Positions 3,789-40,903 of a DNA stretch of 43,909 nucleotides are shown here, one piece after another. Within the stretch, counting starts at the first letter, position 1. Every line of letters starts with the position of its first letter. The notes beneath the pieces are model-generated. The model was not told the DNA's origin and made no database searches. It saw nothing but the letters and a program-made list of their open reading frames with translations. The DNA is from Myxococcota bacterium (GTDB lineage Bacteria > Myxococcota_A > UBA9042 > DTJE01), in contig JAGOKF010000028.1 in the NCBI GenBank assembly GCA_017994695.1, positions 1-43,909 of the forward strand. The letters run 5' to 3'. The translations under genes were made by a program, and so were the position numbers.

Positions 3789-4571
3789 CTACCGGGAAGG
3801 CAGCCGCCAGGGGGTCAGGATCTCGCACCCCTCGGGGGTCACCAGCAGCGTGTACTCGAAGTGGGCCGCCGGTTTCCGGTCCCTCGTGACGACGGTCCAC
3901 CCGTCCTTCTGGATCCGGACCTCGGAAGACCCGAGCGTGAACATCGGCTCCACGGCCAGCGTCATTCCCGGCCGGAGCACGGGACCGGTCCCGGGGGTCC
4001 CGTAGTTCGGGATCGGGGGGTCCTCGTGGAGGGACCGGCCGACTCCGTGGCCGCAGAACTCCCGGACCACGCCGAGGCCCTCGGCCAACGCCCACTGCTG
4101 CACGGCGAAGGAGACGTCGCCGAGGCGGGCCCCGGGGCGGGTCTTCGCGACGGCCTCCTCGAGGGATCGCCGGGTGGTCCGGACCAGGCGGTCCACGTCC
4201 GGGGAGGGTTCTCCGGCGACGACCGACAGGGCGGCGTCGGCGATCCACCCCTTCCAGGTGACGCCGCAGTCGATGCTGACCAGGTCCCCGTGTCGGAGGA
4301 CCCGGGGGCCGGGAATCCCGTGGATCACCTCCTCGTTGATGCTGATGCAGGTCGCGGCGGGATACGGGGGCGCATGGGTCACCATGCCGGGCTGGCCCCG
4401 GAAGGTGGCGGTGCAGTTCGCCTCCCGGATCCGGCGGTCGGCCAGGGCCTCCAGTTCCCCGGTGGTGATCCCCGGCCGGACCTCCCCGGCCAGTTCGGTC
4501 AGCAAGTCCGCCAGGATGGACCCGGCGGTGCGCATCAGGGCGATTTCGGGATCGGTCTTCAGGATGATCAT
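3789..4571 (-). CDS. map: Methionine aminopeptidase, type I
   Basis: This 260-residue M24 metalloprotease would remove the initiator Met from nascent proteins in the cytoplasm. The N-terminus (MIILKTDPEIALMRTAG) is typical of bacterial MetAP. The metal ligands are present: the two Asp of SIDCGVTWKGWIADAA, the His of FCGHGVGRSLHEDP, the Glu of AVEPMF and the Glu of HFEYTLLV. The HAPPYPAATCISINEEVIHG substrate-pocket stretch is intact. The length is normal for type I without an N-terminal zinc-finger extension. The frame stays open far upstream, but the family N-terminus fixes the ATG at 4571. It is convergent with asnB (47 bases between stops) and lies 199 bases downstream of the TatT-like gene, with its own putative promoter, so it is probably a separate transcript. 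Confidence 0.95.
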   Translation of the reverse strand: MIILKTDPEIALMRTAGSILADLLTELAGEVRPGITTGELEALADRRIREANCTATFRGQPGMVTHAPPYPAATCISINEEVIHGIPGPRVLRHGDLVSIDCGVTWKGWIADAALSVVAGEPSPDVDRLVRTTRRSLEEAVAKTRPGARLGDVSFAVQQWALAEGLGVVREFCGHGVGRSLHEDPPIPNYGTPGTGPVLRPGMTLAVEPMFTLGSSEVRIQKDGWTVVTRDRKPAAHFEYTLLVTPEGCEILTPWRLPSR

Positions 4572-7828: not shown

Positions 7829-8656
7829 TCAGGGAGCCCTCTCCCAGGGGAAGGGGATGGTTTTCGGGAAGCGGGCCAGCCACAGGGAGTCGCGGTCAGC
7901 GAGGTAGAGACCTCCTTCCTCCGTCCGGTCATAGCCGATCCACCGGTGGAAGGGGGCCTCGTTCATCAGGTTCGACATCGCCACGGTCTTGGTCTTCTTG
8001 GTGGGCTTCCGGGTGATCTCCTCGAGGCTGCTCTGGAAGCGGGTCTCGGCGACCCAGGGGACATGCTGGAGGTCCAGTTCGGCGAAACAGCACTGGCGGA
8101 ACACCTTGCCCGGCCGTCGGGTGGCGTACCAGGCGTACTCGGAGGGAGAGAGGTTGCTGATTACCAGCAGTTCCAGCGGGGAGAGCACCATGTACATCCG
8201 GGGCTTCCGGGAGGCGGGCTCGGCCTGGCCGATCCGTCGGGCGATCTCCTGGGGCGGCAGGTTTTCGGGGCAGTCCCCCGGAGGCAGGGACAGCAGGCGT
8301 TCCACGGGATCGAGGGCGAGGGCCTCCCCGCCGGTCTTGACCACGTGGATCTGCTGGATCGCCGACAGGGGGGTGCACAGGAACCCGGAGTTGGAGAGGG
8401 CCGTCTTGGTGCGCTTGCCCGCGGCGACGGCCTCCAGGGCGGCCCGGGAATCCCCCTGGGCGTCCCTCCATCCGCCTTCGTCCAGGAACTGGAAGTCGGG
8501 TCGATGGTCCGTGGTCCGGAGTTCCAGGAACAGGGAGCGTCCCTGGAAGTGCTTGCCGGACCCGGGACTCAGATGCTTCGCGAGACCATCGATGCCCAGG
8601 CTCGTGGCGAGGACCGATCCCTGGGGCAGGATCAGGATCAACCGGGGACTGCTCAT
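7829..8656 (-). CDS. Hypothetical protein, unrecognised
   Basis: This 275-residue protein has no signal peptide or membrane segment, so it is probably cytoplasmic. I cannot place it in a family. It opens with a beta-like strand (SSPRLILILPQGSVLA). In the middle are KTALSNSGFLCTPLSAIQQIH and MYMVLSPLELLVISNLSPSEYAWYATRR, both well-ordered-looking segments with aromatic and hydrophobic alternation. Towards the C-terminus is a lysine-rich loop (RKPTKKTKT) and then RWIGYDRTEEGGLYLADRDSLW. Third-position GC is high, which supports a real gene. Two adjacent ATGs (8659, 8656) follow a GGAGG; the second has better spacing. A near-consensus sigma-70 promoter (8717-8690) drives it. It is divergent from parA and is not visibly in an operon with the ABC exporter 231 bases downstream. 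Confidence 0.72.
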   Translation of the reverse strand: MSSPRLILILPQGSVLATSLGIDGLAKHLSPGSGKHFQGRSLFLELRTTDHRPDFQFLDEGGWRDAQGDSRAALEAVAAGKRTKTALSNSGFLCTPLSAIQQIHVVKTGGEALALDPVERLLSLPPGDCPENLPPQEIARRIGQAEPASRKPRMYMVLSPLELLVISNLSPSEYAWYATRRPGKVFRQCCFAELDLQHVPWVAETRFQSSLEEITRKPTKKTKTVAMSNLMNEAPFHRWIGYDRTEEGGLYLADRDSLWLARFPKTIPFPWERAP

Positions 8657-8689
8657 CATGCCTCCTCGATAAGGAAGTTCCTGGCGCAA

Positions 8690-9000: not shown

Positions 9001-9029
9001 TTGCCACCGGACGGGCCTTCTGGCAATCT
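9001..9029 (+). promoter_or_regulatory. Putative parA promoter
   Basis: TTGCCA (9001-9006), 17 bases, CAATCT (9024-9029). The predicted start near 9036 lies just before parS. The -35 and -10 bases also form an inverted pair (TTGCCA...TGGCAA), which could be an operator. Confidence 0.4.
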
Positions 9030-9049
9030 TCGGCCTGCGGAACCGGGGG

Positions 9050-9065
9050 TGTTTCACGTGAAACA
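9050..9065. promoter_or_regulatory. parS centromere site (perfect 16-bp palindrome)
   Basis: The sequence TGTTTCACGTGAAACA is a perfect inverted repeat and matches the conserved bacterial chromosomal parS bound by ParB/Spo0J. It covers the start codon region of parA (GTG 9058-9060 is its centre-right). ParB made from the next gene should load here, spread, and be acted on by ParA to segregate the origin region. Because it overlaps the parA translation start and lies just downstream of the probable promoter, ParB binding could also repress parA transcription. Confidence 0.93.
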
Positions 9066-9861
9066 GTCGAACCGGCAGGATCCGGCAGTCATTGCGGTCG
9101 CCAACCAGAAGGGAGGAGTCGGGAAGACGACCACGGCGGTGAACCTGGCGGCCTCCCTGGCGGTGCTGGAGGTTCCCACGCTGCTGGTCGACCTGGACCC
9201 CCAGGCCAACGCGGGGCTGGCCCTGGGGCTGGACCACCGCGAGGGGCGCCGCCAGGTCTACGAGGCCCTGCTGCGGGGGGTGCCCCTGGCCGACCTGGCG
9301 CTGCCCACCGAGGTCCCTGGCCTCCGGATCGTTCCATCCCATCCCGACCTGGTGGCCGCCGAGGTGGAACTGGTGGACACCGAGCGACCGGCCCTGCGCC
9401 TCCGGGAGGCCCTGGCCGCCCGGGACACCGGGGCCCGGGTGGTCCTGGTGGACTGCCCGCCGGCCCTCGGGTTCCTGACGCTGAATGCCCTGGCCGCGGC
9501 CCGGTATGTGCTGATCCCGGTCCAGAGCGAGTTCTACGCATTGGAAGGACTGGCCCGGCTGCTCGAGACCCTGGGACGAACCCGGGACTCCTGGAATCCC
9601 AAACTGGCCCTCCTGGGCCTGGTGTTGACGCTGTTCGACAAGCGGAACCGCCTCTCCTACGAGGTGGCCGAGGAGGTCGAGCGGAGCTTCCCGGAGGAGG
9701 TCTTCCGGACGAGGATCCCGAGGAACGTGCGCCTGGCGGAAAGCCCTTCCCACGGCAAGCCGGCCCTCTGGTTCGACGTCCAGTCTCCCGGGGCCCAGGC
9801 CTACCTGGCCCTGGCCGAGGAACTGTTGGAACGCCTGGAGGGACGGCCTCGATCCGGATGA
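9058..9861 (+). CDS. parA: Chromosome partitioning ATPase ParA (Soj)
   Basis: This 267-residue deviant-Walker ATPase binds DNA as an ATP dimer and moves ParB-parS complexes on the nucleoid. The deviant Walker A KGGVGKTTT (signature lysine first) is at residues 18-26. LLVDLDPQANAG and VLVDCPPALGFLTLNAL supply the Walker A' and B regions. The C-terminal RNVRLAESPSHGKP is typical of chromosomal ParA. Start: GTG 9058 gives an N-terminus VKQSNRQDPAVIAVANQKGG of normal length; GTG 9049 is a close alternative and both lie in or beside parS. An upstream ATG (8689) would add about 120 unlikely residues. parB follows after 81 bases on the same strand. Confidence 0.95.
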   Translation: MKQSNRQDPAVIAVANQKGGVGKTTTAVNLAASLAVLEVPTLLVDLDPQANAGLALGLDHREGRRQVYEALLRGVPLADLALPTEVPGLRIVPSHPDLVAAEVELVDTERPALRLREALAARDTGARVVLVDCPPALGFLTLNALAAARYVLIPVQSEFYALEGLARLLETLGRTRDSWNPKLALLGLVLTLFDKRNRLSYEVAEEVERSFPEEVFRTRIPRNVRLAESPSHGKPALWFDVQSPGAQAYLALAEELLERLEGRPRSG

Positions 9862-9942: not shown

Positions 9943-10809
9943 ATGAAGGAACGTCGTCCGGCACTGGGGAAGGGACTCTCGGCGTTGTTTCCCTCGGTGG
10001 CTGTCCGGGAAGGGGCCCCCGGGATCGAGGACTGCCCCGTCCACCTCATCGACGCGACCCCGGATCAACCCCGGAAACGGTTCGACGAGAAGGCTCTGGA
10101 GGAACTGGCCCGGTCGATCCGGGAGAGCGGCGTGATCCAGCCCCTGCTGGTTTCCCGGGAAGGGGACCGCTACCGGCTGATCGCCGGGGAGCGGCGTCTC
10201 CGGGCGGCGCGGATGGCCGGGTTGATCTCGGTTCCGGTGATGGTCCGGCAGGCCGGGGCCCGGGAGTCCTTCCTGATGGCCCTGATCGAGAACCTCCAGC
10301 GGGAGGACCTGGGTCCCCTGGAACAGGCCCGGGCCTACCAGCGGCTGGTCGAGGAGTACGGGTGGAGCCAGGAGGAGGTGGCCCGCCGGGTGGGGAAGGA
10401 CCGGTCGACGGTGGCGAACGCCCTCCGGCTGCTCCATTGCGGACAGGCCCTGGCCCGGGCCCTGGAGGAGGGACGGGTTTCCGAGGGGGTGGCCCGGGCG
10501 ATGCTGGGGCTTCCGGAGGAGGCCCAGGAGGCCCTGCTGGCCAGGGTGCTCGACGAGGACCTCCCGGTCCGGCAGGTGGAATCCCTGGTGCGACGCATGC
10601 GGTCCGGGGAACCCCGCCAGAAACGGCGCCAGGGGTCGGCGCTGGACGACTACTTCCGGCTTTCCCAGGAGCGGCTGGAGGCGGCCCTGGGACTCCCGGT
10701 GACCATCTCCCGCCGGGGGCACCGGGGCCAGGTGCGCATCGAGTTCCGGAGCCTCCAGGAACTGCGGGCGCTGCTGACGAAGATCCCGAGCGGTAGCGGA
10801 GAATCCTGA
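9943..10809 (+). CDS. parB: Chromosome partitioning protein ParB (Spo0J)
   Basis: This 288-residue protein is a parS-binding CTPase clamp. The N-terminus RRPALGKGLSALFPS is the usual ParA-contacting segment. The ParB/sulfiredoxin-like CTP domain (about residues 28-120) contains PDQPRKRFD, the GERRLRAARMAG phosphate-binding motif and the LIENLQREDL motif. A helix-turn-helix follows (WSQEEVARRVGKDRSTVANAL, about 138-158) and reads parS. The C-terminal part would be the dimer domain. A GGGAGGA site lies before the ATG. The partner ATPase gene and a perfect parS are immediately upstream, so the whole parABS system is present here. Confidence 0.95.
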   Translation: MKERRPALGKGLSALFPSVAVREGAPGIEDCPVHLIDATPDQPRKRFDEKALEELARSIRESGVIQPLLVSREGDRYRLIAGERRLRAARMAGLISVPVMVRQAGARESFLMALIENLQREDLGPLEQARAYQRLVEEYGWSQEEVARRVGKDRSTVANALRLLHCGQALARALEEGRVSEGVARAMLGLPEEAQEALLARVLDEDLPVRQVESLVRRMRSGEPRQKRRQGSALDDYFRLSQERLEAALGLPVTISRRGHRGQVRIEFRSLQELRALLTKIPSGSGES

Positions 10810-11724: not shown

Positions 11725-12530
11725 GTGAAGTCCCTCCGCTCGAAGACCAGTACCGCCAGCCCGAAGAACAGCAGCACCCATCCCAGGGCATAGCCTCCCG
11801 CGGCGGCCACGTAGTCCCACCCCACCGGGATGCCCAGCACCAGTTCCTTGCCGACGTGGAAGTGGGAGAGGTCCGGGAGGACGAAGACCGCCGCCCGGGC
11901 CAGGGCCCGGACTCCCGGGTCCGTCACCAGGGCGCCCTTCCGGGCCGAGAGATGATCCTGGAGCACCGTCATGGCGCTCCCGATCAGGTAGAACCCCCCG
12001 GTGAAGACCCCGGACATCAGGGGCGTGGCGAAACTGCTGAAGAAGAGGGCCACCGAGGTCAGCAGGGCCGCCTGCATCCAGGCCAGCACCAGGGCCGGGA
12101 CCATGTCCGGGTGGAAGGGGACCCCCTGGATCCGCAGGGCCAGCAGCCAGGCCGCCGCCATCCCGGCCAGGGCGATGGCCAGCACGCCGTAGAGGCCCAG
12201 CAGCTTGCCGGCCAGCACTTCGTAGCGCCGGATGGGCTTCGTCAGCACGACGAAGAAGGTCTTCCGGTCCACCTCCTGGAAGACCAGGATGACCCCCATC
12301 GTGACGGCGATGACCACCAGCAGCAGCGAGATGGCGAAGAGCCCGAAGTCCGTCAGCACCCGGGCCTTCTGGTCCGAGACCGCCAGGTTCGCCAGGGCCA
12401 GCGACGACACCACCAGTCCCATCGCCGCGATGGCCAGGCCCAGGAAGGCCCGGTTCCGGGCCGCTTCCAGGAAGGTGTTCCGAGCGATGGCGCCCACCCG
12501 GCGAAACGGGCCCGCGATGCCCCCGATCAT
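11721..12530 (-). CDS. ABC-2 type transporter permease
   Basis: This 269-residue protein has about six membrane helices. After an amphipathic N-terminus (RRVGAIARNTFLEAARNRAF) come FLGLAIAAMGLVVSSLALA, FGLFAISLLLVVIAVTMGVIL, the cytoplasmic KTFFVVLTKPIRRYEVLAGK loop and LYGVLAIALAGMAAAWLLAL. Further helices follow, then a final one at YALGWVLLFFGLAVLVF. The 'vlTKPirRyevLaGK' loop is characteristic of ABC-2 permeases of the NosY/GldF type. Its ATG overlaps the ATPase stop (ATGA) and its stop overlaps the next gene's GTG. It should pair with the ATPase directly upstream. The substrate is unknown; neighbouring sugar enzymes make a glycan or glycosylated protein possible. Confidence 0.88.
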   Translation of the reverse strand: MIGGIAGPFRRVGAIARNTFLEAARNRAFLGLAIAAMGLVVSSLALANLAVSDQKARVLTDFGLFAISLLLVVIAVTMGVILVFQEVDRKTFFVVLTKPIRRYEVLAGKLLGLYGVLAIALAGMAAAWLLALRIQGVPFHPDMVPALVLAWMQAALLTSVALFFSSFATPLMSGVFTGGFYLIGSAMTVLQDHLSARKGALVTDPGVRALARAAVFVLPDLSHFHVGKELVLGIPVGWDYVAAAGGYALGWVLLFFGLAVLVFERRDFT

Positions 12531-40799: not shown

Positions 40800-40817
40800 G
40801 CGTGCGCTTTGGGTGCT

Positions 40818-40891
40818 GCGCCCGTAGCTCAATTGGATAGAGCAGCAGACTACGGATCTGCGGGTTGGGGGTTCGAGTCCCTCTGGGCGCG
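40818..40891 (+). tRNA. tRNA-Arg (anticodon ACG)
   Basis: The 74 bases fold into a complete cloverleaf. The acceptor stem is GCGCCCG/TGGGCGC with discriminator G. The D arm is GCTC/GAGC. The anticodon stem GCAGA/TCTGC holds loop CTACGGA with anticodon ACG (40852-40854). A 5-base variable loop GGGTT follows, then T arm GGGGG/CCCTC with loop TTCGAGT. The next bases are CCCACC, so CCA is not encoded and must be added. It reads CGU/CGC/CGA after A34 is deaminated to inosine. Confidence 0.95.
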
Positions 40892-40903
40892 CCCACCCTC
40901 CTC

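Follow-up and report, generated by a model that had tools for sequence, protein, structure and literature searches.

An ordinary ParABS locus in a Myxococcota bacterium with apparently one parS, its dyad axis on the likely start codon of parA

Introduction

Most species carry more than one parS site (PMC7022226). A perfect parS lies within the parA coding region of Mycobacterium bovis BCG and M. smegmatis, and the authors of the BCG study suggested that ParB bound at this internal site could block the transcription or the translation of parA (PMC2346475). On chromosome II of Vibrio cholerae, ParB2 represses parAB2 more than 4-fold through the site parS2-B (PMC3141006). When the literature was searched for a parS that lies inside parA or on its start, the mycobacterial report was the only one returned (the survey of Livny et al. 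2007 was outside the scope of this search), and the lack of a report of parS on a start codon is weak evidence for novelty.

Here we describe a parAB locus in a 43,909-nt stretch of DNA from a Myxococcota bacterium (the whole stretch is called the window). The locus is best explained as an ordinary ParABS system with apparently one parS, whose palindrome has its dyad axis on the GTG start codon of parA. We put the probability of this reading at about 80%.

Results

The parA and parB genes

9058–9861, + strand: parA, 267 aa, ParA/Soj ATPase (PF13614 (AAA_31), 9e-50; PF01656, 1e-24)
9943–10809, + strand: parB, 288 aa, chromosomal ParB/Spo0J with ParB_N, HTH_ParB and ParB_C domains

The parB gene starts 81 nt past the parA stop codon, and the two genes form a parA-parB operon. 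ParA has the deviant Walker A motif KGGVGKTT and lacks an N-terminal HTH domain. ParB is complete, with its N-terminal, HTH and dimerisation domains (PF02195, PF17762 and PF23552) and the motifs GERRLRA and ENLQRED, and its closest solved relative is Thermus thermophilus Spo0J (1vz0, 1.8e-54). The genome search returned this ParB only, and one additional, more distant ParA paralogue is encoded on another contig (C70). In Caulobacter ParB, the choice of parS over the Noc site depends on the residues R173, T179, A184 and G201, and the Noc residues at these positions are Q, K, K and R (PMC7383237). The ParB described here has R, A, H and G at the same positions, as mapped by hand from residue spacing. 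Its two switch residues are R and G, neither permissive position holds a lysine, and it is therefore classified as the RxxG, parS-binding type. A Noc identity was rejected, since the NCBIfam Noc score (212.8 bits) is below the cut-off of 315 and the residues are not of the NBS type. Judged by its genes, the locus encodes an ordinary Soj/Spo0J-type ParABS system of the chromosomal kind.

Upstream of parA, an ORF of about 276 aa on the opposite strand (7829–8659, − strand) has no Pfam or NCBIfam match. The window also contains a methionine aminopeptidase-like gene (3789–4541, − strand; Peptidase_M24, 1.9e-46) and a tRNA-Arg (ACG) gene (40817–40895, + strand).

Apparently a single parS in the genome

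9050–9065, no strand: parS, perfect 16-bp palindrome TGTTTCACGTGAAACA, consensus match and sole copy found in the genome

A sequence-only reading of this DNA had claimed that all 16 consensus positions of parS are present here, and we confirmed the site with 0 mismatches. It is the sole match in the window at ≤3 mismatches (shuffle expectation 0.03) and the only match at ≤2 mismatches in its own 3.96-Mb assembly, a draft of 158 contigs in which a second parS inside a gap is possible. A relaxed search, allowing one mismatch in the 14-bp core, added one site in the genome. This single degenerate parS-like site, GTTTCACGGGAAAC, lies at 11945–11958 of contig C140. Because no second good parS is found in this 97%-complete genome, the case for the site at 9050–9065 as the one centromere is strengthened, and it is very probably the sole centromere of the chromosome. 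In a sister genome (G001), one 297-kb contig carries both parS (148.6 kb) and dnaA (261.5 kb), 113 kb apart. This distance suggests that the parABS locus is probably origin-proximal; the linkage is known from the sister species only, since dnaA and parS are on different contigs in the own genome.

Conservation of the site and of the first parA codons

9058–9060, + strand: GTG start codon of parA, shared by 10 homologues and favoured by Shine-Dalgarno energy

The GTG at 9058–9060 is the second half of the central CAC-GTG. It is located at the dyad axis of parS and is in frame with ParA. The 13-nt parS core is identical in all ten family loci, and the mean pairwise identity is 1.0 across the site, compared with 0.29–0.53 in the flanking 10-nt windows. 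Codon 2 of parA is AAA in 10/10 loci, while elsewhere in these parA genes AAG is used 45 times and AAA 6 times. These ten genomes are related, and their conservation amounts to fewer than ten independent tests. Judging from the identical core and the AAA codon, parS holds the first codons of parA (GTG AAA CAn) in place, and the earlier proposal of such a constraint thus stands. A sole parS would be hard to lose or to move, which would keep these codons fixed; the start and codons 2–3 would be bound to parS because no second good parS exists.

The site also co-occurs with ParB. Among 13 family genomes, each of the ten with a ParB orthologue has a single full 14-bp core, located where parA starts, and the three without ParB (G004, G007 and G010, from genera g4 and g7) also lack the parS core. 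Two of these three assemblies are clearly incomplete and the third is 91% complete, and a loss of ParABS in these family members is possible.

Probable centromere and possible operator

The site, the operon, the start, the single copy, the conservation and the co-occurrence with ParB were established by sequence analysis, while binding, spreading and segregation are inferred from the protein family. By analogy, a ParB dimer would bind parS at 9050–9065, load there and then spread as a CTP clamp, and ParA would move the ParB-parS complex so that the origin region is segregated. We then consider what ParB at this site might do to parA.

9001–9029, + strand: candidate parA promoter, TTGCCA (9001–9006), 17-nt spacer, CAATCT (9024–9029), with TG upstream; suggested by a weak consensus match

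The candidate promoter block and its spacing are kept in the sister species without codon periodicity; a strict promoter and terminator scan found no forward promoter before parA. ParB on parS, just downstream of the likely promoter, may as a probable side effect lower parAB transcription, which would constitute negative feedback, and it would cover the DNA encoding the parA ribosome-binding region. We consider the odds of such feedback repression of parAB through this parS to be about even.

In the most serious rival, parS serves purely as a centromere. That it overlaps the start of parA would then be a historical accident, in which a parS beside parA was captured as the start moved upstream, and ParB would sit there without regulatory meaning. 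This is consistent with other families of the class, in which parS is about 10–350 nt upstream of a parA starting with ATG, and with the N-terminus of the family ParA, which is extended by a few residues. Among 379 phylum genomes sampled, parS occurs shortly before the Walker A motif only in the ten family genomes and in G033. In G033 it has nearly the same distance from the motif but is out of frame (closed frame), which also favours this rival. The promoter context varies within the family as well, parA being either behind secG or behind a leader of its own. In 7/10 family loci (L004–L007 and L009–L011, from genera g2, g3 and g5), the secG stop codon is 10–40 nt before the parA GTG, and this linkage is absent in the window's genus (g1). 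Thus, the placement of parS relative to the promoter is not conserved, which weakens the reading of parS as a conserved operator. Furthermore, loss of Spo0J in Bacillus subtilis left the expression of parS-adjacent genes unchanged (PMC7022226). On the other hand, ParB/parS autorepression on V. cholerae chromosome II and repression at parS3/parS4 in Pseudomonas aeruginosa argue against a purely centromeric site, as does the position of parS in the window, about 15–30 nt downstream of the candidate transcription start. On balance, we give the centromere-only account somewhat less than an even chance.

The same geometry in other phyla

A scan of named genomes for the pattern yielded at least 120 stretches, and 80 of the matches listed were read. 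Among these matches, parS just before the Walker A motif of parA is seen in many phyla: in 28 the register brings the central GTG into frame (the frame is not open in every case), 35 show the VSRET register and 17 the closed one. Zetaproteobacteria parA loci (L073, L077, L084 and L115) have the same register as the window, with GTG at the centre of parS and a strong Shine-Dalgarno sequence 5–6 nt ahead of it, but belong to another phylum and to a separate ParA clade. In 7/8 zetaproteobacterial loci tested, a strong Shine-Dalgarno sequence (−9.7 to −11.6 kcal/mol) is found 5–8 nt before the central GTG. The family, the Zetaproteobacteria and the Chloroflexota are in separate clades of the ParA tree, the deep branches of which are poorly supported, and a separate origin of the start-codon geometry in these lineages is likely, though not proven. 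The arrangement is therefore not unique; it is a tidy variant of a known system with a recurring geometry. A stronger interpretation would be a recurrent selected design with separate origins in the family, the Zetaproteobacteria and perhaps the Chloroflexota, in which the sole centromere is at once parA start codon and operator and ParB occupancy directly meters the supply of ParA. We regard this as rather unlikely.

The translation start of parA

9045–9050, + strand: Shine-Dalgarno-like GGGGGT, from anti-Shine-Dalgarno pairing energy, overlapping the first parS base

A second in-frame GTG is present at 9049–9051, beside GTG 9058, and the parA start therefore needed testing. If translation started upstream, at GTG 9049 or TTG 9001, the coding sequence would enclose parS, which is the mycobacterial situation. 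In favour of this, 717 nt of open frame precede 9058, the two g1 genomes both have GTG 9049, and G001 also has TTG 9001. However, the central GTG is the only start codon common to the ten homologues, which represent five genera of the family. At the position of GTG 9049 (−9), the homologues have GTG, CTG, TTG, CGG or GGG, and six relatives have CGG, GGG or CTG. In L004, the central GTG is the sole ATG, GTG or TTG from the upstream stop codon to the Walker A motif. Anti-Shine-Dalgarno pairing in the window is −9.9 kcal/mol for GTG 9058 and a weak −3.5 for GTG 9049; several relatives (g2 and g5) have a weak Shine-Dalgarno sequence ahead of this GTG. Between the two g1 genomes, changes at the three codon positions number 3/5/4 upstream of parS, with no third-position excess, in contrast to 21/7/75 in the parA body. 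Because it is shared by the homologues, has the stronger Shine-Dalgarno sequence and is not preceded by codon periodicity, GTG 9058 is the best-supported start of parA, in agreement with the earlier suggestion of a start inside parS, and an upstream start is quite improbable.

Finally, the idea that the parS palindrome acts as an mRNA hairpin masking the start codon was rejected: a six-pair stem with an ACGU loop does form in the folded leaders of the window and some relatives, but it is an automatic consequence of the DNA palindrome, and the folding is no better than that of shuffles (z −0.64 for the window, −0.70 to +0.57 for relatives).

Discussion

Where a lone parS is fused to the start of parA, one site would serve both roles, and the locus could thus be a clean natural experiment on whether par gene expression is controlled by occupancy of the centromere. 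For annotation, a simple rule may apply to these lineages: the parS dyad gives the parA start.

The locus resembles the ParABS systems of B. subtilis, Caulobacter crescentus and T. thermophilus in its ParA without an HTH domain, three-domain ParB, identical parS consensus and parAB operon. Origin linkage, a feature of Soj/Spo0J-type systems, is probable for the locus described here. Unlike most species, the bacterium apparently has one parS, and this is centred on the parA start codon. The mycobacteria differ in that the N-terminus of parA is long, parS is internal, and a second parS is found upstream of gidB (PMC2346475). The chromosome II system of V. cholerae differs in its parS2 sequence and its number of sites (about ten), and parS2-B is in rctA, off the start codon. 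Nevertheless, parS2-B and the site described here would be alike in being centromere sites close to the promoter of their own operon.
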